A stretch of 57,384 nucleotides of DNA from Accumulibacter sp. (lineage in GTDB: Bacteria; Pseudomonadota; Gammaproteobacteria; Burkholderiales; Rhodocyclaceae), in assembly GCF_023806565.1 (NCBI RefSeq), contig NZ_JAMTDV010000139.1, forward strand, positions 1 through 57,384, written 5' to 3'. The translations under genes and the position numbers were made by a program. Each line of letters opens with the position of its first letter. Position 1 is the first letter of the stretch. A model generated the notes under the pieces. That model was given only the letters and a program-made list of their open reading frames with translations, was not told where the DNA came from and did not search any database. Positions 23,623-41,225 of the stretch are shown here, in pieces.

Positions 23623-23858
23623 TCAGTTTATTCCGGTGAGCACTGCAGACGCCGAAACGTCGATCCACCTCTGGCTCGCCCGGATCGGCGCCAACGGAGC
23701 ATCCCAATGGCGCCACCGGGAACTCGCGTAGCCAATGCGCGCGGGGGAAGCACCCCGACTCCGCTACACGCGTGCTTGTCACCTTGCACGCGGCGTTCCC
23801 GCGCCGAACAGCAAGAAGGCGCCGCGAGTCGCTGCCAGACCACGGTTGTATCGCCTCC

Positions 23859-25232
23859 TCACTCGTACGCCGGCAGCCTGAGTTCGAAGACTGTCAGGCC
23901 GTCGCTGGAGGAGACTGTGGCGTCGCCCCCATGCGCGCGCATGATCGAGCGCGTGATCGCCAATCCCAGTCCCGCGCCTTCGGAATTCCTCTGTCGTGAC
24001 GGGTCGGCCCGGTAGAAACGGTCGAACAGCCGTGGGAGATGTTCCGGGGGAATGGTGACGCCAGTGTTGGTAACCTCGACTTTCGCAAGTCCATTGGAGC
24101 AGGTCAAGGCCACCTCCACACGTCCGCCTTTCGGAGTATGCCGGAAAGCGTTTGAAAGAAGGTTTCCCATGGCTCGCCGCAGCATCAACCTATCCCCTGG
24201 AACCTCTGCTCGTCCCCTCACGGACAGCTCGACACAATTCTCTTCGGAGACGGCCTCATAGAATTCCAGAAGGCCATCGGCCTCTCTGCGCAGATCAACC
24301 GCCTCCGTGGCGGCCACAACGAGATCGTTCTCAGCCTTTGCGAGGAAGAGCATGTCGGCCACTGTCCGCGAGAGCCTCTCGAATTCTTCGGCGTTTGAGG
24401 CCAAGACGTCCCGATATTCGTCGCTTGTCCGAGCCATCGAGAGTGTCACCTGTGTCTGGGTAAGGAGGTTGCTCAGCGGAGTGCGCAACTCGTGGGCCAG
24501 ATCCGAAGAGAACTCCGATAGCCTTCGGAACGACTCTTCGAGCCTCTCAAACATCTCGTTGAGGGTTCGGGCGACCTCAGCCAACTCATCGGGAAAGGCT
24601 TCAGCGCGCAGCCTGCGGTCCAGGCGGTCGGCTGTGATCTCTGCGGCGTCCCGGCAGATGTCACGCAGGGGTGCGAGTCCCTGGCGGGCTGCAGCCCAGC
24701 CGAGCAACCCGCTGGCCACAGCCGCGAGCGCCACGACGCTCCACAGGATTTCATCAAAGGAGCGCATAAAGTGCTCGTGAACGTCCAGTTCGGTGGAAAC
24801 TGCCACAATCGCCGGGCCCGATGGCCCCGGAACCTTTGTGGCCAGTCCGCGGAAAGAGTGTCCCTCGGCGTCCACCCATTTCAAGGGGCGATACGCCGGA
24901 TGCCTCCCCGCCATTTTCAGTTCGGCCGGAAATTTGGCGTCGCCATACGAGTAGATCTTCGCGCCGTCCGCGTCCCAGACCTCCACGGCTAATCCGTGGT
25001 GTCCAACAAGAGCCGCCTCCAGACGTGGGCGTAGAGTGACCACGTCCGCATCGCCCAGGGCGCGTCCCACGAGTCTGATTTTTCCGCTGAGCAGTTCGGC
25101 ATCCATTTCCTCGAAATGGCGCTCAACAAGGGACCCCACCACGAATCCGAGGGCCAGCAAAACCGAGGTCGATACCAACGCGAAAAGGAATGTCAGTCGA
25201 AGCGTGACGGACTTTCCCTCGAACGGCGTCAA
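23859..25232 (-). CDS. cusS: Heavy-metal sensor histidine kinase (CusS type)
   Basis: A 457-residue inner-membrane sensor kinase of the CusS/IrlS family that would detect periplasmic copper or silver. The first membrane helix (about 12-33), a periplasmic sensor loop (about 35-160) and the second helix (about 162-182) are followed by a HAMP linker. Then come HisKA with H247 ([15 protein letters not shown]) and HATPase boxes [20 protein letters not shown] and [13 protein letters not shown]. The TTG start at 25232 overlaps the stop of the regulator gene by four bases, so the pair is coupled. The orientation is opposite to the resistance genes it presumably controls. Confidence 0.88.
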
Positions 25233-25909
25233 TTCCCTTCGTCCTCGATTACGTAGCCCATGCCTCGAGCCGTCCGGATCAGTTTGGGCTCGAAACCGTC
25301 GTCCACCTTTGAGCGCAGGCGCCGGACCGCCACTTCGATGACGTTGGTGTCGCTGTCGAAATTCATGTCCCAGACCTGCGAGGCGATGAGCGAGCGAGGA
25401 AGCACTTCTCCCCGCCGGCGCAGCAGCAGTTCCAGCAACGAAAATTCCTTGCTGGTGAGGTCGATCTTCTTTCCCCCACGCGTCACCCTGCGGCGGCGCA
25501 AATCAAGCTCGAGATCGGCGACAGACAGGACTTCCTCCTCGCGCGCCTTCGAACCCCGGCGCAGCAGGGTGCGCACCCGGGCGAGCAATTCGGCGAAGGC
25601 GAACGGCTTGACGAGATAGTCGTCGGCGCCGAGATCGAGTCCCTTGACCCGGTCGTCTACAGAATCGCGGGCGGTCAGGAACAGCACTGGCATGTCCTTG
25701 CCGGCCTTGCGGACGCCCTGGAGCACCCGCCAGCCGTCGATACCCGGAAGCGTGACGTCCAGGACGGCCAAATCGTAGGCCTCGGTGAGAGCCAAATGCA
25801 ACCCGTCCAGGCCGTCACGGGCCAGATCCACGACAAAGCCCGCCTCCGTAAGTCCCTGTCTGAGATAATCGCCTGTCTTGGTCTCGTCTTCCACGACCAG
25901 TATCTTCAC
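25229..25909 (-). CDS. cusR: Heavy-metal response regulator (CusR/CopR type)
   Basis: A 226-residue OmpR-family activator. The receiver domain has the VVEDE acidic cluster, phospho-acceptor D51 (AVLDVTLPG) and the LVKPFAF Lys. The winged helix shows [15 protein letters not shown], the [21 protein letters not shown] recognition region and ends GMGYVIED, as in CusR/CopR/CzcR. The GTG at 25909 with GGGAG upstream gives the canonical N-terminus (VKILVVEDE); upstream in-frame codons are not conserved. It is transcribed divergently from the cytochrome c gene, with a copy of the island's 20-nt motif between them. Confidence 0.91.
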
Positions 25910-25980
25910 GCTTTTCTCCCGAATTTCGCACTGGCCCATTGTGCGCCGGCTGCCTGCTTCCGATGCAGATCCTTACCGAA

Positions 25981-26000
25981 ATGTAATTCCGCCGTCAGCC
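25981..26000 (+). promoter_or_regulatory. Island motif copy 1 (candidate metal-regulator site)
   Basis: ATGTAATTCCGCCGTCAGCC lies in the divergent promoter region between the cusR-type gene and the cytochrome c gene. Seventeen of 20 bases match copy 2 at 26695. The halves GTAAT and GTCAG recall heavy-metal regulator boxes, but binding by the neighbouring CusR-type protein is an inference. Confidence 0.5.
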
Positions 26001-26056
26001 TTTCGTTATGTGCGACGGGTCAGAATCCGGCCGGACAATCCCCGGAAGTCCCACCC

Positions 26057-26686
26057 ATGAAACGAATCCTGCTCGGTGCGCTCGGTGCCGTTGTTCTCGC
26101 GGCCGTCTCGGCGATGGCCGCCGTCAGCCTCGGCCTCATTCCCTTCTCGGCCGACGAGCCCCATTCGGAGGCCGTCCGCTCCCTGATCGTTTTCGCCAGG
26201 GAGAGATCCATCGCGATGGCTGCTGTCGGCGTCACCATCCCCGACGACCTCGCCTCGCCCGAACGGATCCGCCGCGGGGCCGGCAACTACGAGGCCATGT
26301 GCGCGGGCTGCCACCTCTCGCCGGGCGCCGCGGACACGGAAATCCGCAAGGGCCTCTACCCGCAGCCAACTAACCTCTCAACGAAGGCCGAAGGCCAAGC
26401 CGTCGAGGCTGCGGACGCCAGGCGCTTCCAGATCGTCAAACACGGTGTCAAGGGCTCCGGCATGCCGGCCTGGTCAAAGGGCGGCATGGACGACGGCGCG
26501 ATATGGGATCTGGTGGCGTTTGTGCGCGTCCTCCCCGACACGTCGCCAGCGGGCTACCGCGCCTTGGTGGAGGTCAGCGACGGCCACTCGCACGCGGGCA
26601 TGGAAGGAATGGGTCACGAACATGGGCAGCACGACCACGGCGCCCATCCCCACGCGCATGCGGGGCACGACCACCATGGACATTGA
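26057..26686 (+). CDS. Class I cytochrome c with His-rich C-terminal tail
   Basis: A 209-residue periplasmic or membrane-anchored c-type cytochrome. An N-terminal signal/anchor helix (about 4-28) precedes a single heme site CAGCH (C82, C85, H86) and a likely axial Met in GSGMPAWS (about 155). The final 35 residues are dominated by His, Met and Gly (for example GHEHGQHDHGAHPHAHAGHD), a plausible metal-binding tail. The fold is the small cytochrome c domain seen in many copper-resistance loci. It opens the plus-strand island, divergent from the sensor-regulator pair. Confidence 0.82.
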   Translation: MKRILLGALGAVVLAAVSAMAAVSLGLIPFSADEPHSEAVRSLIVFARERSIAMAAVGVTIPDDLASPERIRRGAGNYEAMCAGCHLSPGAADTEIRKGLYPQPTNLSTKAEGQAVEAADARRFQIVKHGVKGSGMPAWSKGGMDDGAIWDLVAFVRVLPDTSPAGYRALVEVSDGHSHAGMEGMGHEHGQHDHGAHPHAHAGHDHHGH

Positions 26687-26694
26687 TTACACGA

Positions 26695-26714
26695 ATGTAA
26701 TCCGGCGGTCAGCC
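26695..26714 (+). promoter_or_regulatory. Island motif copy 2 (candidate metal-regulator site)
   Basis: ATGTAATCCGGCGGTCAGCC starts nine bases after the cytochrome c stop codon and 76 bases before the DUF411 gene. It matches copy 1 at 17 of 20 positions and has the same orientation relative to the downstream gene. Confidence 0.5.
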
Positions 26715-26770
26715 TCCCGTAGGAATTGGAAAGCCAAACTGCCGACATCCGAAACGACAGGAGCGACGCC

Positions 26771-27220
26771 ATGAACCGATTCGCCAAAACCCTCCGACCA
26801 CTCTTGCTGCCCCTCGCCCTGGCCGCCCCGGGCTTCGCCTTGGCCGACGCCGCGGTCCGCGTCGAGGTCTTCAAGAGCCCCTATTGTGGCTGCTGCGAGA
26901 GGTGGGTTGAGCAGATGCGCAGGAACGGCTTCGAGGTCGTCACCAAGGACGTCCAGGACGTTCCGGCCGCCCGTAGGGCTGTCGGCATGCCCGACCGCTA
27001 CGGCTCGTGCCACACCGCCAAGATCGCCGGCTACGCCATCGAGGGCCATGTGCCGGCCGAGGACGTGCGGCGACTCCTCCGGGAGAACCCCAAGGTCGTC
27101 GGCCTGTCGGGCCCGGGCATGCCACAGGGTTCCCCCGGTATGGAGACCGTCACGCCCAAACCCTACGACACGCTGCTCGTCCGCGCAGACGGTGGCTACG
27201 AAACCTTCGCCAAACACTGA
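26771..27220 (+). CDS. DUF411 periplasmic metal-binding protein
   Basis: A 149-residue exported protein. The signal peptide (residues 1 to about 25, ending FALADA) precedes the DUF411 core, a thioredoxin-like small domain with the Cys cluster KSPYCGCCERW. The conserved YGSCHTAKIAGYAIEGHVPA and GLSGPGMPQGSPGME segments follow. DUF411 proteins are recurrent members of copper-resistance loci and are thought to bind Cu(I). The start at 26771 has AGGAG upstream; an earlier in-frame ATG (26726) would cover the regulatory region. Confidence 0.88.
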   Translation: MNRFAKTLRPLLLPLALAAPGFALADAAVRVEVFKSPYCGCCERWVEQMRRNGFEVVTKDVQDVPAARRAVGMPDRYGSCHTAKIAGYAIEGHVPAEDVRRLLRENPKVVGLSGPGMPQGSPGMETVTPKPYDTLLVRADGGYETFAKH

Positions 27221-27245
27221 CCGAAAGAGAATCCGCGATGAACCT

Positions 27246-27404
27246 AAAAACCGCAGTTACCCACGGAAAATCCCGCTCATGCTTCGACAAGCTCAGCACG
27301 AACGGGATTTTTGCCTCTCACCCAGCGGGTGAGGCCCCGTTCGCCCTGAGCAGCCCGCGTAGCGGGCGTGTCGAAGGGTTCGTGTGTTTTCAACTGCGGT
27401 TTCC
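27246..27404. repeat. Palindromic MITE/REP-like element upstream of cusF
   Basis: The roughly 155-bp segment is a large imperfect palindrome. Its ends are AAACCGCAGTT (27248-27258) and AACTGCGGTTT (27392-27402), exact inverted repeats. Inside them, the segment at 27281-27304 (core CTTCGACAAGCTCAGCACG) is roughly mirrored by the segment at 27345-27378 (CCGTTCGCCCTGAGC, then GTCGAAGGG), and small hairpins (CTCACCC/GGGTGAG and GCCCGC/GCGGGC) fill the centre. Such palindromes are dispersed repeats in many proteobacteria. Here it separates the DUF411 gene from cusF and reaches to within four bases of the cusF ATG. Confidence 0.6.
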
Positions 27405-27407
27405 AGG

Positions 27408-27737
27408 ATGAAGATCATCCTGATCGCAGCCTTTCTCGCCTTCGCGCTCACGTCCGGAGCGAACGCTGCCAACTCTACGGAGCGGAAGAAGTACGGAGAC
27501 GGAGCCGCGGCCCGAAAGACCGACACCCCGCTGACCGAAGGCGTCGTCAAGAAAGTGGACAAGGCCTCCGGCAAGATCACGCTTACGCATGGCCCACTGC
27601 CCAATGGGATGCCCGGCATGACCATGGCCTTCAAGGTCAAGGAAACCGCCCGCCTCGAAGGCATCAAGGAGGGGGAGAAGGTTCTGTTCGCCATCGACGA
27701 CGGCATGATGATCATCCTTCTCGAGGCAGCCAAGTAA
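27408..27737 (+). CDS. cusF: CusF-type periplasmic copper-binding protein
   Basis: A 109-residue exported protein. A signal peptide (about 1-22) is followed by a CusF domain (about 45-105) of small beta-barrel type: GVVKKVDKASGKITLTHGPL, then GMPGMTMAFKVKE with the Met pair used for Cu(I)/Ag(I), then GEKVLFAIDDG. CusF hands metal to the CusCBA pump. The ATG at 27408 follows the palindromic element almost directly, and only a weak CCAGG precedes it, so translation initiation may have been altered by the element. Confidence 0.87.
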   Translation: MKIILIAAFLAFALTSGANAANSTERKKYGDGAAARKTDTPLTEGVVKKVDKASGKITLTHGPLPNGMPGMTMAFKVKETARLEGIKEGEKVLFAIDDGMMIILLEAAK

Positions 27738-27743
27738 GCGGCA

Positions 27744-29015
27744 ATGGCAGCGAGACCGTTCCGTCTGCTTCCGGCCCTCCTCGCTTCGCTCTGGTTGGCG
27801 ACCGAGGCCCTGTCGCAGGAAGCCGCACTCGGACGAAGCGTAGACAGCCTGCTCGAGCTCGCCCGCGGGAGCAACCCCGAATATGCAGCCGCGCAGGCGG
27901 AGGCCACCGCCGCCGGTGAGCGGGTGGTGCCCGCCGGGGCGCTGGCCGACCCACGCCTGCGGGTGGAACTGCGCGACATCACCCGTTCCGGCGAGCAGAA
28001 CCCGACGATCTCGCCCAGCCGCGTCGGCAGTACCCGTTATCTGCTGTCACAGGATCTGCCCTGGTTCGGGAAGCGGGAACTGCGCCGCGAGATCGCCGAA
28101 TTCGAAGCGGAGGGAGCGAAGAATCGCGCCAGCGGCACCTGGGCCGAGCTCGCGGCGAAGATCAAGACGGCGTACGCGCAGCGCTACTACGTCCAACGCA
28201 ACCTGCAACTCATGCGCGAAATTCTCGACCTGACCCGGCGCCTCGAGAAGATCGCGCAGGCGCGCTATTCGGGCGGTCTCGCGGCACTCGCCGACGTGAT
28301 CCGCGCGCAGGTCGAACAGACTGGCCTGCAGAGCGAACTGTTGGTTCTGGAGGGCGAGAGCCGGCAGCTAGACGCACGTATCAACGCCTTGCTGGCTCGG
28401 CCTGCAGCGGCGCCGCTGGCCGCGCCGGAACGCCTGCGCGCGCTGCCAGCGGCAGCGAATTTCGATCCGGCGACGCTCGAAGAGCGGCTGCGCGCCCGCA
28501 ATCCGGTGCTGTTCGCCGAAACGTCCCGGGTCCAGGCGGCCGAGCGCAGCCGGGAACTGGTATACCGGAATCGCTACCCGGATGTCACGGTCGGCGCCGG
28601 TCCGATCCAGTACCAGAGTGCGATCCGGGAGTGGGAACTGATGGTCGAACTGAACCTTCCGCTGCAACTCTCGTCGCGCCGTTCGCAGGAGCGCGAAGCC
28701 GAGGCAACGCTGGCCGCCGCGCGGGCGCGCAAGGAAGCAACGGCCAATCAGTTGCTGGCCGAACTCTCGGAAAATCTCGTCGGCATCGAGACGGCGCGGC
28801 GTACCGAGTTGCTCGCTTCGACCAGCCTCCTGCCTGAAGCGGAACTCACCTATCGCGCCGCCCTCGCCGGCTACGAGACCGGCAAGGTCGACTTCGCGAC
28901 GCTGCTCGAAGCGCAGCGAAAGATCCGGCAGGCCCGACAGAGCGAGATCAAGGCGCAAAGCGAAGCGCGGATCCGCCTCGGCGAAATCGAACGACTCCTG
29001 GGGGATGACCTATGA
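27744..29015 (+). CDS. cusC: TolC-family outer-membrane efflux protein (CusC role)
   Basis: A 423-residue outer-membrane channel component. The signal peptide (about 1-24) is followed by two OEP repeats of long alpha-hairpins, as seen in LLELARGSNPEYAAAQAEA and LEERLRARNPVLFAETSRV, each about 190 residues. There is no lipobox, unlike E. coli CusC. It starts six bases after cusF and overlaps the adaptor gene by four bases, so it is the first gene of the tripartite copper/silver pump. Confidence 0.88.
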   Translation: MAARPFRLLPALLASLWLATEALSQEAALGRSVDSLLELARGSNPEYAAAQAEATAAGERVVPAGALADPRLRVELRDITRSGEQNPTISPSRVGSTRYLLSQDLPWFGKRELRREIAEFEAEGAKNRASGTWAELAAKIKTAYAQRYYVQRNLQLMREILDLTRRLEKIAQARYSGGLAALADVIRAQVEQTGLQSELLVLEGESRQLDARINALLARPAAAPLAAPERLRALPAAANFDPATLEERLRARNPVLFAETSRVQAAERSRELVYRNRYPDVTVGAGPIQYQSAIREWELMVELNLPLQLSSRRSQEREAEATLAAARARKEATANQLLAELSENLVGIETARRTELLASTSLLPEAELTYRAALAGYETGKVDFATLLEAQRKIRQARQSEIKAQSEARIRLGEIERLLGDDL

Positions 29016-30565
29016 AACCCACCGCCGCCTTAGCCGTCGTCGGCGTCGCGCTGCTTGCCGCCGGCAGCGGCTACTGGCTGGGCAGTCACCCGGAGCCGAC
29101 CAGCAGCGCCATCGAAACGTCTGCGCCCGCGGCAAAGCGCGGCAAGCTCCTGTACTACCGCAACCCGATGGGACTTCCCGACACTTCTCCGGTGCCGAAG
29201 AAGGACCCGATGGGGATGGACTATCTGCCCGTCTATGAGGGCGAAGAGGACAACACGCCGGCGTCCGCCAACCAGATCAGGATTAGCGTCGAAAAGGTGC
29301 AGAAACTGGGCGTGCGTACGGAGCCAGCGGTCCTCGCCCCAATCGAGCGGATCGTCTCCGCGGCGGGCCGAATCGAGCCGGACGAACGGCGCGTCTATAC
29401 CGTCGCTCCGAAGTTCGAGGGTTACGTCGAGCGCCAGTACGTCAATGTCACCGGGCAGCCGATCGCCAAGGGGCAGCCCCTGTTCGAGGTGTATGGTCCC
29501 GAGCTGGTTTCCGCCCAGCGCGAGTATGCGATCGCGATGCAGGGGCTGGCCGCGCTGCACGAGGCTGAGCGCGACAAGCAGGCGGCGATGCGCGAAGTGG
29601 CGGAATCGAGCCTGCAACGCCTGCGCAACTGGGACATCTCCGAGGAGCAGATCAAGGTCCTGGCCAATTCCGGTGAGGTCCGGAGGACGCTGATCCTGAG
29701 ATCGCCCGTCTCCGGCGTCGTCACCGAGAAGAAGTCCGTCCAGGGCATGCGCTTCATGCCGGGCGAGACGCTCTACCAGGTAGCCGACCTGTCCTCGGTC
29801 TGGGTCGTCGCCGACGTCCCCGAACAGGACGTCGGGTCGGTCTCCGTCGGTGCCAAGGCCAAGGTCTCCATCGACGCCTATCCCGACAAAGCCTTCGAGG
29901 GCACCGTCTCCTACGTCTACCCGACCCTTAAGGCCGAGACCCGCACCGTACCGGTGCGCATCGAACTGGCCAACCCCGGGACGCTCCTCAAGCCGGGCAT
30001 GTTCGCCCGCGTCGAGACACGCTCCGCCGGGAAGGCCCGGGCCCTGACGATCCCCGCGTCGGCCGTCATCGACAGCGGTACGCGCCGGATCATCCTCATC
30101 CAGGCGGGCGAGGGCCGCTTCGAGCCGCGCGAGGTCAAGACAGGGATACGCTCCGGGGACCGCGTAGAGGTCCTCGAAGGGGTGCGGGAGGACGAGCGGG
30201 CGGTTGTCGCTGCCAACTTCCTCATCGACGCCGAAAGCAACCTCAAGGCGGCCGTCGGCGGCTTCGGCCATGCCGCGCACGGCAAGCCGGCGGATGGCGG
30301 CGCCAAGCCCGCGCCCGCGGGCCACTCGGCCGCCGGGAAGGTCGAGGGGACCGACGCCAAAGCGGGGACGGTCAGCATCGCCCACGGCCCCGTCGCCGAC
30401 CTCAAATGGCCAGCGATGACCATGGAGTTCAAGGTCGCCAACGACGCGCTGATGTCATCGCTAAAGCCCGGTGCCGAGGTCTCCTTCGAGTTCGTCGAGC
30501 GCGCGCAAGGGGAATGGGTGATCACGCGGGTCACTCCCGCCTCCGGCGCCCATGCGGGCCACTGA
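29012..30565 (+). CDS. cusB: RND efflux periplasmic adaptor CusB with heavy-metal-binding and fused CusF domains
   Basis: A 517-residue membrane-fusion protein. An N-terminal helix (about 5-24) leads into a heavy-metal-binding segment (about 48-75; YYRNPMGLPDTS then PMGMDYLPVY). The lipoyl/barrel-sandwich and alpha-hairpin domains follow (GYVERQYVNVTGQPIAKGQ, SPVSGVVTEKKSVQGM), then the beta-barrel (VWVVADVPEQDVGSVS). After an Ala/Pro/His-rich linker (about 415-440) the C-terminal ~70 residues form a second CusF-type domain (GKVEGTDAKAGTVSIAHGPV, WPAMTMEFKV). It overlaps the cusC-type gene (ATGA) and ends 10 bases before cusA. Confidence 0.92.
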   Translation: MKPTAALAVVGVALLAAGSGYWLGSHPEPTSSAIETSAPAAKRGKLLYYRNPMGLPDTSPVPKKDPMGMDYLPVYEGEEDNTPASANQIRISVEKVQKLGVRTEPAVLAPIERIVSAAGRIEPDERRVYTVAPKFEGYVERQYVNVTGQPIAKGQPLFEVYGPELVSAQREYAIAMQGLAALHEAERDKQAAMREVAESSLQRLRNWDISEEQIKVLANSGEVRRTLILRSPVSGVVTEKKSVQGMRFMPGETLYQVADLSSVWVVADVPEQDVGSVSVGAKAKVSIDAYPDKAFEGTVSYVYPTLKAETRTVPVRIELANPGTLLKPGMFARVETRSAGKARALTIPASAVIDSGTRRIILIQAGEGRFEPREVKTGIRSGDRVEVLEGVREDERAVVAANFLIDAESNLKAAVGGFGHAAHGKPADGGAKPAPAGHSAAGKVEGTDAKAGTVSIAHGPVADLKWPAMTMEFKVANDALMSSLKPGAEVSFEFVERAQGEWVITRVTPASGAHAGH

Positions 30566-30575
30566 CGGGAGGGGC

Positions 30576-33500
30576 ATGCTTTCGAAAATCATCGACTGGT
30601 CCGGACGCAACCGCTTCCTTGTCCTGCTGGCCACCCTGTTCGTGATCGTCGGCGGGACCGTCGCCGTGCTGCGCACGCCGCTCGACGCGCTGCCGGACCT
30701 CTCCGACGTGCAGGTCATCGTCTACACCGAGTATCCGGGACAAGCGCCGCAGGTGGTCGAGGACCAAGTCACCTACCCGCTCACCACGGCCATGCTCTCG
30801 GTGCCCAAGTCGAAGGTGGTGCGCGGCTTCTCCTTCTTCGGCGCCTCCTTCGTCTATGTCATCTTCGAGGATGGCACCGACATCTACTGGGCCCGCTCGC
30901 GGGTGCTCGAATACCTCAACTCGGCTGCCGGGCGGATGCCCAAGGGCGTCGTCCCCCAGATGGGCCCGGACGCGACCGGCGTCGGCTGGGTCTACGAATA
31001 CGCCGTGCTCGCCAGGGACAAGACGCTGGCCGAACTACGGACGCTGCAGGACTGGTATCTGCGCTATCAACTGACCAAGGCCCACGGCGTCGCCGAGGTC
31101 GCCTCCATCGGCGGCTTCGTCCAGACCTACCAGGTCACCGTCGATCCGGTGAGGCTGCGCGCCTACGGGATCCCGCTTGCCAAGGTTTCGCAGGTCATTC
31201 GCGACTCCAACCGCGACGTCGGTGGTCGGGTGGTGGAGATGGCCGAGACCGAATACATGGTCCGCGGCAAGGGCTACCTGCGCGGCGTTCAGGACATCGA
31301 GAAACTCGTCCTCAAGAGCGACAAGGGAACCCCAGTGCTGGTGCGCGACGTCGCCCGGGTCGAACTCGTCCCGGACGAGCGCCGGGGCTTGACGGAACTG
31401 AACGGCGAGGGCGAGGTCGTCTCCGGCATCGCCATGGCACGCTACGGCCAGAACGCCCTCGAAGTCATCCACAACCTCAGGGAGAAGATCGCCGAGGTCT
31501 CCACTGGTCTGCCCGAGGGGGTGAGCATCGAGGCCGTTTACGACCGTTCCGAGCTCATCCATCGGGCCATCGACACCTTGAAGCGCACGCTGACCGAGGA
31601 GTCGATCATCGTCGCCTTGGTCTGTGTCGTCTTCCTGATGCACGTGCGCTCGGCCTTGGTCGCCATCGTGATGCTACCGGTCGGTGTGCTCATCGCTTTC
31701 ATCGCCATGCGCCTGCTCGGCATGAACTCGAACCTGATGAGCCTGGGCGGTATCGCCATCGCCATCGGGGCCATGGTCGACGCCGCCATCGTGATGATCG
31801 AGAACGCCCACAAGCACCTTGAGCGGCTGCCCGAGGGCCACTCGGCCGCGGAGCGGGCCGAGGCGATGCTGGCCGCCTGCCGCGAGGTAGGCCCGGCCCT
31901 GTTCTTCTCGCTGCTCATCATCACGGTCTCCTTCCTGCCGGTCTTCACTCTCGAGTCCCAGGAAGGTCGGCTCTTCTCGCCGCTGGCCTACACCAAGACC
32001 TTCGCCATGGCCGGCGCGGCGCTGCTCTCCGTCACACTCGTGCCCGTGCTGATGGCCTTCTTCATCCGCGGCAAAATCATGCCCGAGCAAAAGAATCCGG
32101 TGAACCGCATCCTTATCCGGCTTTACCGGCCCGTCATCACCCGGGTAATGGAGTGGAAGAAGGCCAGCGTCGCGATCGCCATCCTCGCCCTGGCGGCCAC
32201 GATCTGGCCGGCGTCGCGCCTGGGCTCCGAGTTCATGCCCACCCTCAACGAGGGCACACTGTTCTATATGCCGGCCTCGCTGCCGGGGATGTCGATCACC
32301 AAGGCGGCCGAACTCCTCCAGACCCAGAACAAAATCATCAAGAGTTTCCCCGAGGTCGCCTCGGTTTACGGCAAGGCCGGGCGGGCCAACACCGCCACCG
32401 ACCCGGCGCCGACCGAGATGTTCGAAACGGTCATCAACCTTAAGCCCGAGTCAGCGTGGCGTCCCGGGATGACGGTGGACAAACTGATCTCCGAGATGGA
32501 CAAGGCCCTCCAGTTTCCCGGCGTCTCCAACGCCTGGACCATGCCTATCAAGGCGCGCATCGACATGCTCTCCACCGGCATCCGCACCCCCATCGGGATC
32601 AAGGTCTTCGGCAAGGACCTGGGCGAGATGGAGCGCCTCGCCAAGGAGATCGAGTCTGTCGTCAAGGCCGTCCCCGGAACCACCTCGGCCTTCGCCGAGC
32701 GCATCACCGGCGGGTTCTACCTCAACGTGGAGCCCGACCGGGAGCAACTGGCCCGCTACGGGCTGGCCGTCGGTGACTTACAGGACGTCATCGGCACCGC
32801 CTTGGGTGGGGAGATGGTGACGACGACCGTCGAGGGCCGCGAGCGCTTCGCGGTCAACGTGCGCTACCTGAGGGAACTGCGCTCCGATCCCGACCGCATC
32901 GCCCGCGAGGTGCTCGTTCCGACCATGGACGGGGCCATGGTTCCGCTCGGCCAACTGGCCAGGGTGGAAATCGCCAAGGGCACCCCGGGCATCCGCACGG
33001 AGAACGCCCTGCTGTCGGCCTACGTCTACGTGGACATTCGTGACCGCGACATCGGAGGCTACGTGGCCGACGCCAGGAAGGCCGTCGCCGGGAAGGTCAA
33101 GTTCCCACCGGGCTACTACGCAACGTGGAGCGGTCAGTTCGAATCCATGGAGCGCGCCGTCGAGAAGATGAAGATCGTCGTTCCCGTCACGCTGCTGCTC
33201 ATCTTCGTGTTGCTCTACCTCAACTTCAAGCGCCTGACCGAGACCCTCATCGTCATGCTCTCCGTGCCCTTCGCTCTCGTCGGCGGGGTCTGGCTGATGT
33301 GGGCCTTGGGCTACAACCTCTCCGTGGCCGTCGCCGTCGGCTTCATCGCCCTGGCGGGCGTGGCCGCCGAGACCGGCGTCGTCATGCTGATCTACCTCGA
33401 CCACGCCTGGGAGGAACTCAAGGCGGCGAGACGAGCCGAGGGCCGGACGCCCGACCTCTCCGACCTCTACGCCGCGGTCATGGAGGGCGCCGTCGAGCGC

Positions 33501-33710
33501 GTGCGTCCGAAGATGATGACGGTCGTCGCCATCATGGCCGGCCTCCTGCCCATCATGTGGGGCACGGGCACCGGTTCCGAGGTCATGAGCCGGATTGCTG
33601 CCCCGATGGTCGGCGGCATGGTCTCCTCGACGATCCTCACACTCGCCGTCATTCCGGCCATCTACGCCCTGATCAAACAGTGGCGGTTGAGCCGGGGGCT
33701 GGAAAAATGA
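30576..33710 (+). CDS. cusA: Copper/silver RND efflux transporter CusA
   Basis: A 1044-residue inner-membrane heavy-metal efflux RND pump with twelve membrane helices and two large periplasmic loops. Recognisable features: the N-terminal RNRFLVLLATLFVIVGG helix, the porter-domain segments DALPDLSDVQVIVYTEYPG and GYVRQ-type loops, and VRSALVAIVMLPVGVLIAF. The charged motif on TM4 is seen in GGIAIAIGAMVDAAIVMIEN, the Met-rich cleft region is at SLPGMSITKA, and the final helices include GFIALAGVAAETGVVMLIYL. The ATG at 30576 has GGGAGGGG upstream. Proton-driven export of Cu(I)/Ag(I) is the known role of the family. Confidence 0.95.
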   Translation: MLSKIIDWSGRNRFLVLLATLFVIVGGTVAVLRTPLDALPDLSDVQVIVYTEYPGQAPQVVEDQVTYPLTTAMLSVPKSKVVRGFSFFGASFVYVIFEDGTDIYWARSRVLEYLNSAAGRMPKGVVPQMGPDATGVGWVYEYAVLARDKTLAELRTLQDWYLRYQLTKAHGVAEVASIGGFVQTYQVTVDPVRLRAYGIPLAKVSQVIRDSNRDVGGRVVEMAETEYMVRGKGYLRGVQDIEKLVLKSDKGTPVLVRDVARVELVPDERRGLTELNGEGEVVSGIAMARYGQNALEVIHNLREKIAEVSTGLPEGVSIEAVYDRSELIHRAIDTLKRTLTEESIIVALVCVVFLMHVRSALVAIVMLPVGVLIAFIAMRLLGMNSNLMSLGGIAIAIGAMVDAAIVMIENAHKHLERLPEGHSAAERAEAMLAACREVGPALFFSLLIITVSFLPVFTLESQEGRLFSPLAYTKTFAMAGAALLSVTLVPVLMAFFIRGKIMPEQKNPVNRILIRLYRPVITRVMEWKKASVAIAILALAATIWPASRLGSEFMPTLNEGTLFYMPASLPGMSITKAAELLQTQNKIIKSFPEVASVYGKAGRANTATDPAPTEMFETVINLKPESAWRPGMTVDKLISEMDKALQFPGVSNAWTMPIKARIDMLSTGIRTPIGIKVFGKDLGEMERLAKEIESVVKAVPGTTSAFAERITGGFYLNVEPDREQLARYGLAVGDLQDVIGTALGGEMVTTTVEGRERFAVNVRYLRELRSDPDRIAREVLVPTMDGAMVPLGQLARVEIAKGTPGIRTENALLSAYVYVDIRDRDIGGYVADARKAVAGKVKFPPGYYATWSGQFESMERAVEKMKIVVPVTLLLIFVLLYLNFKRLTETLIVMLSVPFALVGGVWLMWALGYNLSVAVAVGFIALAGVAAETGVVMLIYLDHAWEELKAARRAEGRTPDLSDLYAAVMEGAVERVRPKMMTVVAIMAGLLPIMWGTGTGSEVMSRIAAPMVGGMVSSTILTLAVIPAIYALIKQWRLSRGLEK

Positions 33711-33760
33711 GTCCTCCGGCAACCCCAAGCCCCTTCGTCCACCAGCAAAGGAGAAATGCC

Positions 33761-34213
33761 ATGAACGCCAAGACGAGGCTCGCGACACTCGCTCTGGGTC
33801 TCGGCCTGACCGTCCCGGCCCTCGCCAACGACGAGCACCACCCTGAGAAGGCCGCTGGAGCCTCTACCACCGCCACGGCCCCGGCGCCGAATGCCGACGC
33901 CAAGGCCATAGAAGCCAATGCCGCCAAACTTCAGGCCCAGGCCAAGCGAATTGCAAGAACGAAGCCGGGTCCCGAGCGCGACAGACTCGTCGCCGAGCAC
34001 ATGCGCTCCCTGCACGAGAGCATGGAGATGGCCAAGGGCATGATGTCCGGAATGGACATGGAGAACTGTCCGATGATGGAAGGCATGATGGGCGCCAAGG
34101 GCGTGGACGGCGCCGGGAAACCCTCGGGCGGATACGGCGAGCGCATGGACCGCATAGAGAAGCGTATGGACATGGTGGAGCAGATGATGAAGGGCGGGAT
34201 GTCCAAGCCGTGA
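33761..34213 (+). CDS. Met-rich periplasmic protein, probable copper binder
   Basis: A 150-residue exported protein with a signal peptide (about 1-22, ending PALAND). The mature part has an Ala-rich helix (about 35-75) and a Met/Glu/Asp-rich half (HESMEMAKGMMSGMDMENC, then PMMEGMMGAKG, and a tail with a MVEQMMKGGM run), giving more than fifteen Met in about 80 residues. No named domain was recognised. Repeated Met-x-x-Met spacing, periplasmic location and position after cusA suggest Cu(I)/Ag(I) sequestration; this is inference. AAAGGAG precedes the ATG. Confidence 0.75.
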   Translation: MNAKTRLATLALGLGLTVPALANDEHHPEKAAGASTTATAPAPNADAKAIEANAAKLQAQAKRIARTKPGPERDRLVAEHMRSLHESMEMAKGMMSGMDMENCPMMEGMMGAKGVDGAGKPSGGYGERMDRIEKRMDMVEQMMKGGMSKP

Positions 34214-34434
34214 GCGGCCCGGATGGGACACCAAACATGGCAACGCCCGAGGGCCTCCGACCCGCCTGCTTGAGTCACGGCCCCCTGGAATGCCGTTGCG
34301 AAGGCTGCCTGCACGAAATCCGCTCCGGCGCCGGACCGGGCCGCGCGTTTCCCAAGGGGCTCTACGACCGGTTTGTGGAAGCCCTCTCCGAGGCTCTCGA
34401 CATCCGGGAGATGGAGACGGGTGTCAGCAGCGGA
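34210..34434 (+). pseudogene. HD-GYP protein, 5' fragment (interrupted)
   Basis: A GTG start overlapping the previous stop (GTGA) opens a frame of about 75 residues containing a Cys/His cluster (CLSHGPLECRCEGCLHEI) and then FVEALSEALDIREMETGVSS. The latter is the usual beginning of HD-GYP cyclic-di-GMP phosphodiesterase domains (ALDIRE...TG..S). The frame then enters foreign sequence and stops at 34461. The catalytic HD and GYP core is missing; the 3' end of the same domain resumes at 34671. The gene is therefore broken by an insertion plus a deletion. Confidence 0.7.
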
Positions 34435-34670
34435 TGTAAATTGATACATCGCAGCGGTTGAAAGTTGATACACCGAGTTGAGAAGATCGGCGACTTTCTT
34501 GGGGCGCCGGTGATTACGAGAGAGGTGTATGTGGAAATGGAGGTCTTGAGGAAGCATGGATTCAGTCTGCGGCGGATTGCGGTGGAAGTGGGGTGTGCGG
34601 TGAACACGGTACGCCGGCACTTGGCAGCGGGCGGGGTACCGCGGTATGAGCGACGCCAACGGCGGGAGAG
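34435..34670 (+). mobile_element. istA: IS21-family remnant (left end plus truncated istA)
   Basis: The segment opens with TGTAAATTGATACA, followed by a second near-copy (TTGAAAGTTGATACACC), the tandem sub-terminal repeats typical of IS21-family ends. A GTG at 34510 then begins an IstA N-terminus (ITREVYVEMEVLRKHGFSLR, VEVGCAVNTVRRHLAAGG, PRYERRQRRERP), the helix-turn-helix of the transposase. Only about 55 residues of the usual 400-500 remain. There is no istB and no right end: the element has been deleted from inside istA into the HD-GYP gene it had entered. Confidence 0.72.
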
Positions 34671-34964
34671 GCCGCAGAGCTCGTTCTATGCCACGAGGAG
34701 CGCCACGACGGCGGCGGTTACCCACGAGGGCTCAAGGGGGAGGAGATTCCTCTCGGGGCCAGGCTTTTCGCCGTCATCGACACGCTCGACACGATGACCT
34801 CCGACCGTCCCTATAGGAAGGCCATGCCCTTCGACGAGGCCAAGGAGGAGATCCTGCGCATGGGCGGCAGTCAGTTCCACCCGGACGCCGTCGAGGTATT
34901 CCTCCTCGAGGAGCCCACACTGCGCGAAATGGTCGCCGCCAAATGCAGCCTTCCAAGAACCTGA
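34671..34964 (+). pseudogene. HD-GYP protein, 3' fragment
   Basis: In the frame beginning at 34671 the sequence reads AAELVLCHEERHDGGGYPRG and continues with EEIPLGARLFAVIDTLDTMT and [20 protein letters not shown], ending after about 97 codons at 34964. This is the C-terminal half of an HD-GYP domain, including the HHExxDGxGYP-like metal motif region. No start codon or ribosome binding site belongs to it. It is the continuation of the fragment that starts at 34210. Its stop overlaps an ATG in the copA frame. Confidence 0.75.
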
Positions 34965-34984
34965 TGACCCAAGAGGTGAACGAC

Positions 34985-37273
34985 ATGGCCGACATCGATC
35001 CCGTCTGCGGCATGACCGTCAAACTCGAGTCCCCCCATGTGTCGGACCACGACGGCGTCCATTACCGGTTTTGCAGCGGCAAATGCAAGGCCAGGTTCGA
35101 CGCGGACCCTGGAAAGTATCTCGCACCGCGAGTCGAGGAGGCCACTCACGCGGGCACCGAATACACCTGCCCGATGCATCCGGAGGTTCGCCAATTCGGC
35201 CCGGGTTCCTGCCCCAAATGTGGCATGGCCCTGGAACCTGTGCTACCCGAGGCGGGGACCGAGCAGGACGACTCGGAATATCGGGACTTCCGGCTGCGCT
35301 TCTGGGGCAGCCTGCCGCTCACGGTCATCGTCGTCGTCCTCGCCATGGTCGGCCACCGCATCGGAACCCTTCCGGCCGCCGTCAGGACGTGGACGGAAAT
35401 GCTCATGACGGCTCCCATCGTCCTTTGGGCCGGCGCCCCCTTCTTCAGGCGCTGTCTGGAATCCATTGTCCGACGCAGCCCCAACATGTGGACGCTCATC
35501 GGGATCGGCACCGGCGCGGCTTTCCTTTACAGCGTGGTCGCCGCGCTCGCCCCGGATCTCTTCCCTACCTCCTTCGAGGCCCACGGCCGCATTGGCGTCT
35601 ACTTCGAGGCCGCCGCCGTCATCATCTCCCTGACCCTGCTCGGCCAGATGCTCGAATTGCGGGCCCGCGCCCAAACCTCGGAGGCGATCAAGTCCCTGCT
35701 CGGGCTCGCCCCGAAGACGGCCCGCCGGATCAACCCGGACGGATCCGAGGAGGACGTGGCCCTGACCCACGTCCATGTCGGCGATCTGCTGCGCGTGCGC
35801 CCTGGCGAGAAGGTGCCGACGGACGGCGAGGTGGTCGAGGGAGCGAGCGCGGTGGACGAGTCGATGCTCACCGGCGAGCCGCTCCCCGCGCCCAAGGCGC
35901 CGGGCGACAAGGTGATCGGCGCCACCCTGAACGGCTTCGGCAGCCTCGTGATGCGTTCGCAGAAGGTCGGCTCGGCGACCGTCCTCTCCCAGATCGTCCA
36001 GATGGTGGCCCAAGCCCAGCGTTCCAAGGCCCCCATGCAGCGCATGGCCGACGTAGTGGCTGGCTGGTTCGTCCTCGCCGTGGTCGGCGTCGCCCTGGCC
36101 AGCCTCCTTGGCTGGTGCCTCTTCGGCGGTGAGCGCGGCTGGCTCTTCGGCCTGATCAACGCCGTCTCCGTCCTCATCATCGCCTGTCCTTGCGCCCTCG
36201 GCCTGGCCACTCCCATGTCGGTGATGGTCGCCACGGGCAGGGCCGCTACCCAGGGCATCCTGTTCCGCGACGCGGCCGCAATCGAGCGCCTGCGCGAGAT
36301 CGACACCTTGATCGTGGACAAGACGGGAACCCTGACTGAAGGCCGCCCTGCGTTCGAGCGAGCGATCGCCATCTCAGGCATTTCCGAGGACGAGATCCTG
36401 CGACTCGGGGCGAGCCTCGACCAAGGCAGCGAGCATCCTCTCGCCGACGCAATCGTCAAGGCCGCCCGGGAGCGTGGGCTCGATCTGGAGAAAGCCGAAG
36501 GCTTCGAGTCCTCAAGCGGGATCGGTGCGAGCGGCTCCGTCGGCGGCCGCAGACTCGCCCTGGGCAATGCCACACTGATGGCCCAGGTGGGCGTGGACGT
36601 CTCCCCTTTGACCGGTCCGGCCGAGGAACTGCGACGGGGCGGGGCGAGCGTCATGCACCTGTCGGCTGACGGCCGGCTGCTAGGGCTCCTCGCGGTTTCC
36701 GATCCGATCAAGGCCAGCACGCCGGAGGCCCTCTCGGCGCTGCGCCGGGCCGGGTTACGGGTGGTGATGGCCACCGGCGACGGCGAGACCACTGCCAGGG
36801 CCGTCGGGGCGAGACTCGGCATCGACGAGATCCATGGCGAGGTGAAGCCGGCCGACAAACTCGCCCTGGTCGAGCGTCTCCAGAAGGAGGGTCGCTTGGT
36901 CGCCATGGCCGGAGACGGCATCAACGACGCCCCTGCCCTCGCCAAGGCCGACGTGGGCATCGCCATGGGCACGGGGACGGACGTCGCCATGAACAGCGCA
37001 CAGGTCACGCTCGTCAAGGGCGATCTGCGCGGCATCGCCCGCGCCCGTCTCATCTCGTCGGCCACCGTGGACAACATGCGTCAGAACCTCGCCTTCGCCT
37101 TTCTCTACAACGCCTTGGGCGTCCCCGTAGCGGCCGGCGTCCTCTACCCCGCGTTCGGGCTCGTCCTTTCCCCGATCATCGCGGCCGCGGCCATGAGTCT
37201 GTCTTCGCTGAGCGTGGTCGGCAATGCCCTACGTCTGCGTGCCGGGGGCGCCGAAAACCTTACCGAGAAGTAA
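34985..37273 (+). CDS. copA: Copper-translocating P1B-type ATPase CopA
   Basis: A 762-residue membrane ATPase exporting Cu(I) (or Ag(I)) from the cytoplasm. Instead of HMA domains the N-terminus has a YHS domain (about 1-45; [23 protein letters not shown]) and a heavy-metal-binding segment (about 58-85; [20 protein letters not shown]). Eight membrane helices follow, with the actuator TGEP loop, the ion-binding CPC ([13 protein letters not shown], about residue 400), the phosphorylated Asp in DKTGTLTEG (about 446), HPLADAIV and [24 protein letters not shown] before 34985 decides the start. It belongs to the same transcriptional direction as cusCBA. Confidence 0.95.
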
Positions 37274-37287
37274 TCCCGCGGTCACCA
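37268..37287 (+). promoter_or_regulatory. Island motif copy 3 (candidate metal-regulator site)
   Basis: AAGTAATCCCGCGGTCACCA overlaps the last codons of copA and lies 87 bases before a small secreted-peptide gene. It shares GTAATCC-GCGGTCA with copies 1 and 2 and has the same orientation and comparable distance to the next start codon. Confidence 0.45.
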
Positions 37288-37373
37288 TTTTGACGGTGTC
37301 GCCGGAGCAGCATATGAACCGTCTGGAGCCTCCGGGTCTTTGCACAGTCCCAACCAACGCGAGGAGAAACGTC

Positions 37374-37520
37374 ATGAAAGCCCCCACCGTCCTCCCGGCC
37401 TCCCTGTTCAACGCCGCCTTCATCATCTCCGCAGGCGCCTTCGTTACCGGGTCGGAGAAGACTCCCGCGGACAGGAAAGCCGACAGGAAGCGCCACCATC
37501 ATCCCCGCGACGGCAAATAA
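37374..37520 (+). CDS. Small exported His/Lys/Arg-rich peptide
   Basis: A 48-residue peptide with GAGGAG eight bases before the ATG. The first half is a hydrophobic signal-like helix (MKAPTVLPASLFNAAFIISA) and the second half is strongly basic and ends KRHHHPRDGK, a possible metal-binding tail. No family was recognised. Its strong ribosome binding site and the copy of the island motif upstream argue that it is real. Its job is unknown; a periplasmic or membrane-tethered metal ligand is one possibility. Confidence 0.55.
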   Translation: MKAPTVLPASLFNAAFIISAGAFVTGSEKTPADRKADRKRHHHPRDGK

Positions 37521-39811: not shown

Positions 39812-40216
39812 TTAGCCGCCACCGCCGTGGTCCTTGTGCAGCAAACCGTTGACGCGCCAGATCTCGTTCCCGTTCATGATGATCTGCTTGTCGTCCTTGG
39901 TTTCCATGACGTGGCCGGACTCCATGTAGGTCGGACGACCAAATTTGTCCTCCATCCCCATCTTCCCGTCTTTGAAGATGTAGACCGTACTGCCGTCCTT
40001 CAACTCGATCGATTCCTCAACCTGAGCTTTGTCCACTGCGAACGAAGTTATGGAAGACGGCTTTGCGGTCGGCGCGCTCTTGGCGGCCGGGCCGTGTGAA
40101 GGCCAGTGAATGCGGCCCTTTCTGAGAGCGTCGTTTTGGGCATCGGCCAACGCCGTCGCGGTGCCTGCGGTGGCCACAATGGCGGTCAAGGCCAGGTTGA
40201 AAAAAATCTTTTTCAT
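39812..40216 (-). CDS. copK: CopK-family periplasmic copper-binding protein (long copy)
   Basis: A 134-residue exported protein: signal peptide (about 1-26, ending ALADA), then a 40-residue spacer rich in Ala/Lys/Ser. The CopK domain follows (about 68-128), with SIELKDGSTVYIFKDGKMGM, PTYMESGHVMETKD and IIMNGNEIWRV. CopK of Cupriavidus metallidurans binds Cu(I) and Cu(II) through Met-rich surfaces; the Met residues of MGMED, YMESGHVMET and IIMNG are all present. It differs from the neighbouring paralogue by the inserted spacer. CAGGAG precedes the ATG. It is expressed from a promoter block shared with the czcE-like gene. Confidence 0.87.
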   Translation of the reverse strand: MKKIFFNLALTAIVATAGTATALADAQNDALRKGRIHWPSHGPAAKSAPTAKPSSITSFAVDKAQVEESIELKDGSTVYIFKDGKMGMEDKFGRPTYMESGHVMETKDDKQIIMNGNEIWRVNGLLHKDHGGGG

Positions 40217-40265
40217 GGAGATTCTCCTGACGAGATGACATTGATCAGATCCGACCAATGCCGCC

Positions 40266-40336
40266 TGACCGTGATGCCATCGTAGGTGCCGCATCCCAAC
40301 AGAACGGTGGACCCGGGGATTAACTTTTGGTCAACC
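40266..40336 (-). promoter_or_regulatory. Shared promoter block, copy A (before the long copK)
   Basis: About 71 bases, 50-120 bases upstream of the long copK start, are roughly 75% identical to the block before the czcE-like gene (41156-41225). Both begin TGACCGTGATGCCAT and end TTTTGGTCA-CC when read on the plus strand. The outer TGACC and GGTCA are inverted repeats. TACGATGG on the minus strand occupies the place of TATTATGG in the other copy, probably the -10. Confidence 0.6.
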
Positions 40337-40348
40337 CTTGGAATGCTG

Positions 40349-40636
40349 TCAGCGTCCGCCACCCTTCTGGTTCTTGTACAGCAGAGTGTCGACACGCCAG
40401 ATCTCGTTCCCGTTCATGATGATCTGCTTGCCATCCTTGGTTTCCATGACGTGGCCGGACTCCATGTAGGTCGGGCGACCGTATTTGTCCTCCATCCCCA
40501 TCTTCCCGTCCTTGAAGACGAAGACCGTACTGCCGTCCTTCAACTCGATGGATTGTTGAACCTGACTCAGGTCCGCCGCTGACGCAGTGAGAGTAGCTGC
40601 GCCCATCACAGCCGCCGTCAATAGATATTTCAACAT
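40349..40636 (-). CDS. copK: CopK-family periplasmic copper-binding protein (short copy)
   Basis: A 95-residue exported protein. The signal peptide (about 1-20, ending ASAAD) leads directly into the CopK domain (SIELKDGSTVFVFKDGKMGM, PTYMESGHVMETKD, IIMNGNEIWRVDTLLY), the usual CopK length. It is nearly identical in its domain to the neighbouring long copy, also at DNA level, indicating a tandem duplication. TAGGAG precedes the ATG. Its upstream region differs from that of the other copy and carries two palindromes. Confidence 0.9.
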   Translation of the reverse strand: MLKYLLTAAVMGAATLTASAADLSQVQQSIELKDGSTVFVFKDGKMGMEDKYGRPTYMESGHVMETKDGKQIIMNGNEIWRVDTLLYKNQKGGGR

Positions 40637-40677: not shown

Positions 40678-40737
40678 GACAATGATAATGTCGACCAGCT
40701 TACGGCTTGCCGACCACTTGATGACATTTGCGTCATC
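40678..40737 (-). promoter_or_regulatory. Palindromes upstream of the short copK
   Basis: Two inverted repeats lie 42-101 bases before the short copK start: GACA-N7-TGTC at 40678-40692 and GATGAC-N6-GTCATC at 40720-40737. Dyads with TGACA/TGTCA halves are typical targets of CusR/CopR-type regulators, but which protein binds here is unknown. Confidence 0.4.
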
Positions 40738-40754: not shown

Positions 40755-41093
40755 TCAGCGACCAGCCCCCCGATAGAGCGGGTTCTTGGCCACATAGACC
40801 GTAACCCCGTCAGCACCTGGGATAATCTTCGTGAGCGGGAACGAAGTCGTGCCGAGCGTATCGAAAGTCCAAGTAGTGATTCTGCCGTTCACATTGAGCT
40901 GAATCGTTTCGGACTGTGTGACATTCAGCGACTTGCTCTCGCTGCCCAAATTCACGACCCTACTGCCGGCCGTACCGCTTGCCGGATAGCCATACGGGGC
41001 AAGCTGATTTGTCGTTGGCTCGGCCGCAAAGGTTGTTGCGCCTATGGCGGCCAAGGTGACAGCCATCGCCAGCTTGGTACAGGTATTATTCAT
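40755..41093 (-). CDS. CzcE-like periplasmic metal-binding protein
   Basis: A 112-residue exported protein with a signal peptide (about 1-23, ending FAAEP). The mature domain resembles CzcE: LNVTQSETIQLNVNGRITTW, TFDTLGTTSFPLTKI and VTVYVAKNPLYRG, a small beta-rich metal-binding fold. CzcE of C. metallidurans binds copper although named after the czc locus. CAGGAG lies upstream of the ATG. The upstream region is the second copy of the block found before the long copK, pointing to common control. Confidence 0.8.
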   Translation of the reverse strand: MNNTCTKLAMAVTLAAIGATTFAAEPTTNQLAPYGYPASGTAGSRVVNLGSESKSLNVTQSETIQLNVNGRITTWTFDTLGTTSFPLTKIIPGADGVTVYVAKNPLYRGAGR

Positions 41094-41155: not shown

Positions 41156-41225
41156 TGACCGTGATGCCATAATAGGACCCGCCTCCTAACGACACGGTGA
41201 CCCAGAGGTTACGTTTTGGTCAGCC
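41156..41225 (-). promoter_or_regulatory. Shared promoter block, copy B (before the czcE-like gene)
   Basis: This is the 70-base counterpart of the block at 40266-40336, located 63-132 bases before the czcE-like start. The minus strand contains CCTATTATGG, a good -10. The block stops just where the DUF1214 fragment on the other strand begins. Confidence 0.6.

Follow-up and report, generated by a model that had tools for sequence, protein, structure and literature searches.

The copper island of this Accumulibacter sp. contig repeats a short motif ahead of several genes, and we asked what the motif is part of, which protein would bind it and which genes it would place under common control. The window, by which we mean the whole 57,384-nucleotide stretch (NZ_JAMTDV010000139.1), had been given a preliminary description that listed three forward-strand 20-mers, at 25981, 26695 and 37268. 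All three are present there, ending 56, 56 and 86 bases 5' of the ATG codons at 26057, 26771 and 37374, in keeping with the 57–87 bases originally given. The 20-nucleotide motif is real, but it is only the right half of a site: each GTAAT is preceded by a TTAC whose first base lies 10 bases before the G. Sequence comparison points to an operator of ~54 bp, not 20, which is very probably the operator-promoter of the CopRS (CusRS-type) two-component system encoded beside it. The CopR/CusR/AgrR type of operator is already known, and this one is not new in kind. Of interest are its fixed geometry and its bearing on a sigma factor suggested for Pseudomonas putida; otherwise it is ordinary.

Results

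A degenerate 15-mer derived from the three copies matched, at zero mismatches, the three sites in the window and, across the 3.71-Mb assembly, one further position, C28:10601, which belongs to a second copper island. With up to three mismatches it was found 13 times in the window against 9.0 expected, which is no significant excess. We rejected it as a description of the whole site: it omits the left half-site and everything past GTCA. The full core, TTACN6GTAAT, gave four matches at three places in the window against 0.01 expected.

The layout was drawn from an alignment of the window sites with those of the second island, and relatives were then used to avoid circularity. With offsets counted from the G of GTAAT, four elements recur in the aligned sites: an inverted repeat spanning -10 to +4, then GTCA or something close to it at +11, either GT or GA at +22, and at +38 a hexamer that resembles a -10. 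The comparison set was the best 80 loci encoding relatives of CopR (71%–87% identical); our own genome is excluded from it (at most 32 exact 40-mers in common with the window or C28). TTACN6GTAAT occurred 107 times in 45 of these loci (reversed pattern, six times), and GTCA stood at +11 in 55 of the 107 matches, with at most three at any other offset. Selection by TKACN6GTMATN6GWCA gave 114 distinct oriented sites in 67 loci (reversed pattern, none), which sit on 102 repeat centers, 12 of them used on both strands. Columns outside the selection pattern were conserved: G at +22 in 112 of the 114 sites, A at +39 in 108 and T at +43 in 107, with all three together in 105. A -35 consensus was sought at +15 to +20 of these sites, and none was found. 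The -10 thus lies at a fixed distance without a conserved -35, a layout of the class II type to which operator 3 (Table 1) is a possible exception. Because the unselected columns at +22, +39 and +43 are conserved and +15 to +20 holds no -35 consensus, we take the predicted unit to be four half-sites about one helical turn apart plus a fixed -10.

A matrix built from the sites of other organisms only was then run on the window, with 60 simulated windows as the null (best score 16.3 bits). Five sites scored 30–52 bits (Table 1). Two of them lie on the minus strand, at 41212 and 40725, and overturn the earlier statement that there was no fourth intergenic copy. A sixth match, on the plus strand at 40732, stands at the level of the null with 16.4 bits and represents the 40725 repeat in its other orientation. 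All five carry the TKAC-N6-GTMA inverted repeat of the AgrR/CopR type and a third half-site at +11; the strict AgrR form, ATKACA-N4-TGTMAT, is found in the window at the 26687 site only. Operator 3, not purely intergenic, overlaps the stop codon of a P-type ATPase gene: its GTAA half-site supplies the TAA (37271–37273, within 37260–37274).

Of the 80 loci, 69 have the inverted repeat no more than 260 bp upstream of copR; in 61 of these 69, the orientation that scores better points away from copR. On the copR side, relatives have a CAMAAT-like element from near +32, with columns 55%–65% conserved, and no conservation at +11 and +22. Gene context is consistent with a copper function: a recognized copper gene lies within 700 bp downstream of 75 of the 114 sites, copR itself in 10 of these.

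We scanned the whole assembly (3,714 kb) with a degenerate full pattern. All seven matches with at most one mismatch fell on the copper-gene contigs C28 and C139, which together make up 94.9 kb (2.6%), and we rejected the idea that the motif is spread through the genome. With up to two mismatches, 13 of 15 matches fell on these contigs, two of the 13 being one identical 528-base duplicate on C28; with up to three there were 33 matches against nine for the reversed pattern. Core-only matches in C86 and C45 have no GTCA at +11. The C28 sites precede cusC, two DUF411 genes and copK-like, czcE-like and small peptide genes, and one more (G at 33646) has no recognized gene after it. The suggestion that the motif defines a regulon is supported, and the regulon is likely larger than first drawn, with copK and czcE in the window and the second island added.

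The exact full pattern occurred in 22 of 28 same-genus genomes, our own included (56 matches, four of them our own; reversed pattern, none). Over genus and class, 59 matches outside our own genome were found by DNA pattern alone, and the locus was readable for 36. In 31 of the 36 a cusC, DUF411, cusF, copA, copC or cytochrome c gene lies within 700 bp downstream; absence of the motif from orthologous clusters, which would have counted against the original proposal, is therefore not what is seen. None of 111 matching records covers 80% of the island in one place, which leaves no near-identical plasmid copy among them.

The identification of the adjacent regulator as CusR-type, and of the motif as its candidate binding site, is supported. 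CopR scores 356.2 bits against TIGR01387, a model of heavy-metal regulators (cut-off 279.2), and its paired kinase CopS scores 482.3 bits against TIGR01386 (cut-off 292.55), so both pass. CopR has a receiver domain (PF00072) and a winged-helix DNA-binding domain (PF00486), both above the gathering score, and does not reach the narrower copper/silver equivalog NF007346 (345.2 vs. 420). C28 encodes a paralog 83% identical to CopR; after it, identity drops to 40% for the next-best response regulator of the genome. Among the solved structures related to CopR are the DNA-binding domain of PcoR (2jzy) and entries for BasR and KdpE.

Known promoters were scored with the same matrix. That of Escherichia coli cusC reaches 27.2 bits: TGACAATTTTGTCAT is followed by GTCACC at +11, ATCAG at +22 and TAAAGT at +38. 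Nothing else within 3 kb exceeds 0.7 bits, the value of the same repeat in reverse. With a threshold of 15 bits for the other records, the Cupriavidus chromid cop2 region gave one match (38.6 bits) and a Pseudomonas syringae plasmid three (35.8, 31.5 and 28.8 bits). The accessible parts of two papers give transcription starts in Cupriavidus: a copper-only copA start at 191,243, with the copA start checked by 5' rapid amplification of cDNA ends (5' RACE) (PMC7563307), and starts at 191346 for copR1 and 2431286 for copR2 (PMC9045368). Relative to the GTAAT G these fall at +52 for copA1, +44 for copR1 and +43 for copR2, which fits the predicted positions.

According to the portions of PMC12428095 available to us, the P. 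putida cop promoters mapped by 5' RACE have no known -10 or -35, with "CGCACA" near -10 and "AGC" near -35, and its authors suggested unidentified sigma factors or mechanisms. From the published motifs, we infer that "AGC" closes a GTCAGC and that "CGCACA" belongs to a -10 of the CACAAT type. The footprint reported there at copA1 (-69 to -23 from the start) is close to the span of four half-sites, and that at copR2 (-73 to -35) fits the inverted repeat plus its upstream side.

Table 1. Predicted operators, their elements and the genes around them (window coordinates)
Feature	Position	Strand	Elements	Evidence
copS/cusS, heavy-metal sensor histidine kinase	23859..25232	-		TIGR01386
copR/cusR, OmpR-family heavy-metal response regulator, 226 amino acids from GTG at 25909	25229..25909	-		TIGR01387; Response_reg and Trans_reg_C
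-10-like element facing copR	25943-25938	-	CACAAT, +33 from the inverted repeat shared with operator 1	Similar element near +32 in relatives
Operator 1, facing cytochrome c gene	25973..26026	+	Inverted repeat 25973-25986; third half-site GTCAGC 25994-25999; fourth GTTAT 26005-26009; -10-like CAGAAT 26021-26026	Matrix 44.8 bits (G 25983); 0-mismatch genome match
Cytochrome c (cbb3 subunit III-like), first gene past operator 1	26057..26686	+		PF13442, 48.1 bits vs. 27
Operator 2, between cytochrome c and DUF411	26687..26740	+	Inverted repeat 26687-26700; GTCAGC 26708-26713; GTAGG 26719-26723; -10-like CAAACT 26735-26740	Matrix 51.6 bits (G 26697); 0-mismatch genome match
DUF411 gene, then cusF, cusC, cusB, cusA and others	26771..27220	+		PF04214, 88.8 bits vs. 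27
Operator 3, inverted repeat overlapping ATPase stop codon	37260..37313	+	Inverted repeat 37260-37273; GTCACC 37281-37286; GACGG 37292-37296; -10-like CAGCAT 37308-37313	Matrix 37.4 bits (G 37270); 1-mismatch genome match
Secreted-looking His-rich peptide gene after operator 3, 48 amino acids	37374..37520	+		Similar HPRDGK-ended peptides in loci L041 and L069
copK, periplasmic copper-binding protein family, after operator 5	40349..40636	-		PF11525, 106.1 bits vs. 23.8
Operator 5, before copK	40682..40735	-	Inverted repeat 40735-40722; GTCGGC 40714-40709; GTAAG 40703-40699; -10-like TATCAT 40687-40682	Matrix 30.4 bits (G 40725); 1-mismatch genome match
czcE-family gene after operator 4	40755..41093	-		PF16986, 79.6 bits vs. 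30
Operator 4, before czcE	41169..41222	-	Inverted repeat 41222-41209; GTCACC 41201-41196; GTTAG 41190-41186; -10-like TATTAT 41174-41169	Matrix 37.0 bits (G 41212); 2-mismatch genome match

Several neighboring features deserve mention in their own right. His-rich peptides with an HPRD(G/M)K-type end lie downstream of CopR-type operators in three organisms (in our own, in the window and on C28 near 34,375; elsewhere in L041 and L069). The window copy has no Pfam match, and the C28 copy has its signal-like start and its His-rich end in different reading frames; these peptides may be an undescribed family of small copper proteins. Two copK-family genes stand in tandem on the minus strand (39812–40636); as called, the downstream copy is extended at its N terminus. 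Inside the DUF411 operon, the gap before cusF holds a palindromic-looking stretch (27260–27400), which we rejected as a repeated element: the 23-mer tested from it is single-copy in the genome within two mismatches. On C28, bases 23643–24170 and 36893–37420 are identical over 528 bases and the second copy ends 49 bases before the contig end; either a genuine duplication or overlapping assembly could account for the repeat.

Discussion

We propose that these sites are operated by CopRS. By analogy with the family, CopS would sense periplasmic copper and phosphorylate CopR, which most likely occupies the four half-sites, the binding and the number of monomers both being predicted. The half-site array ends just upstream of the -10 at +38, and a conserved -35 is missing. 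CopR therefore most likely stands in for the -35 contact and would, as a class II activator, bring in sigma-70 RNA polymerase; AgrR has been proposed to work in this way. Read from its other strand, the inverted repeat would also serve copR, with a -10 near +32 as seen in relatives, which suggests autoregulation. The window regulon would then comprise the cytochrome c gene, DUF411-cusFCBA and the following genes, the His-rich peptide gene and those following it, copK and czcE. These genes would respond to copper in this organism, and since the C28 island carries the same operator beside a paralogous CopR, cross-regulation of the two islands is likely.

Much of this has precedent. The inverted repeat, added half-sites (AgrR and P. 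putida CopR), autoregulation and a 37-bp motif in Cupriavidus (a putative CopR1 site) are already published for the family. In the sections of PMC7380067 available to us, AgrR of Cupriavidus metallidurans, a silver-resistance regulator not shown to be a CopR ortholog, binds ATKACA-N4-TGTMAT, to which some operators add a further direct repeat in phase, upstream and/or downstream, whereas the window sites have a half-site at +11 in all five, a second at +22 and a fixed -10. P. putida KT2440 CopR, like ours, has several half-site-like TGACA/TGTCA motifs per footprint, by which the authors explain its extended protection; unlike here, fixed spacing or a -10 is not stated in the available part of that paper (PMC12428095). 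CopR of Pseudomonas aeruginosa and CusR of Pseudomonas paraeruginosa and E. coli are likewise described as OmpR-family proteins with an inverted-repeat site and copper-resistance targets, and the CusR site lies between regulator and target, as operator 1 does. Their consensuses, as quoted, consist of the inverted repeat only, yet the elements at +11 and +22 also occur at E. coli cusC.

The pMOL30 cop region encodes DUF411, a P-type ATPase, cytochrome c, CzcE and CopK, as does the window. Its 37-bp MEME motif, which by the accessible text of PMC7563307 lies ~50 bp upstream of cop starts and is absent at copG, copK and copO, resembles our operator in length and distance to the start, the two features compared. 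Sites of E. coli ArcA, of the OmpR/PhoB family, mostly have three to five half-sites at steps of mostly 11 bp, but these are direct repeats only, without a fixed promoter position as far as PMC3798270 was available. In the literature surveyed, which excluded figures and many subscription papers, we found no statement of the fixed layout of four half-sites and a -10, of its occurrence at E. coli cusC or of the distinct spacing toward copR; this is weak evidence of absence, and the parts covered of PMC7763554, PMC13209446, PMC10127602, PMC10920338 and PMC12589874 held nothing decisive.

How much of the 54 bp does CopR itself contact? The operator could be the 16-bp inverted repeat alone, with the +11 and +22 elements belonging to the promoter, in or near the -35, and touched by RNA polymerase; these elements do flank the place expected for a -35, and the quoted CopR and CusR consensuses are inverted repeats. 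We think this unlikely: the two elements repeat the half-site sequence at 11-bp steps, +15 to +20 holds no -35 consensus, AgrR-mediated activation fell when the promoter-proximal direct repeat was mutated (PMC7380067, seen in part), and the P. putida footprints described in PMC12428095 are extended over several half-site-like motifs. That the main binder in the cell is another heavy-metal regulator of the same subfamily has a somewhat better chance, if still well short of even. The 83%-identical paralog is encoded beside operators of the same type, and related regulators in Pseudomonas (CzcR, CusR and CopR) share GTAAT half-sites according to the literature available to us, so CopR need not be the sole binder. 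On the other side, all five window sites lie within 16 kb of copR (25229–25909), one of them in its own divergent promoter, and the paralog aside the genome offers no close second regulator. Chance similarity, or copies left by a recent promoter-region duplication instead of selection on a binding site, might be suspected from three downstream genes that share one island; we regard it as negligible. Spacer bases vary among the window operators while half-sites and -10 are kept, and the 114 distinct versions in 67 foreign loci, set against no reversed match, together with the matrix from other organisms, led us to reject a chance or post hoc motif.

Several observations weigh against CopRS control through this layout, in addition to the shared half-sites. 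The fourth half-site of operator 3 is overlapped by a plausible sigma-70 promoter, TTGACG-N17-TATGAA (37290–37318). Among the relatives, 11 of the 80 loci have no good inverted repeat near copR, and 39 of the 114 sites have no recognized gene within 700 bp downstream. The E. coli cusR side does not have the +32 spacing (TACTCT lies near +37), and the pMOL30 region gave only four matches of at least 15 bits (35.1, 23.1, 20.1 and 15.6), though motifs are reported at most cop starts. From the portions of the papers at hand, two other copR2 starts (-58 and +14) and a secondary copA1 start do not fit; the P. putida footprints fit in two of four cases, copA2 and copR1 being the exceptions (PMC12428095); and the AgrR footprint at copA2 (-74 to -40), if the start is near +50, covers the inverted repeat and the copR side, not the copA-side repeats (PMC7380067). 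The exact full pattern is present in only eight of 274 class genomes, our own included (11 matches, four of them our own; reversed pattern, none), so the strict layout is not widespread. This low count and the remark on half-sites in P. putida slightly lower our confidence, both in CopRS as the system behind the window operators and in the wider proposal that follows.

That proposal, which we put forward tentatively and at just under an even chance, is that one promoter grammar serves the CopR/CusR family across Beta- and Gammaproteobacteria, E. coli cusC included. It would consist of an inverted pair and two direct half-sites at 11-bp steps, with a -10 exactly 38 bases from the core and no -35, which four monomers would replace; the direct-repeat side would set the main direction, copR would have a second promoter at about +32, and the P. 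putida cop promoters would be explained.

The cop promoters reported without a known sigma-factor motif, in the parts of PMC12428095 available, may be ordinary sigma-70 promoters at which the regulator replaces the -35. Because the exact full pattern had no reversed match in 274 class and 28 genus genomes, the full operator, unlike its 20-nucleotide half, has the specificity needed to pick out candidate copper regulons in genome sequence. In this organism it groups copK, czcE, DUF411, cytochrome c and the small His-rich peptide as probable targets of a single switch, and points to genes that would be turned on together under copper stress.

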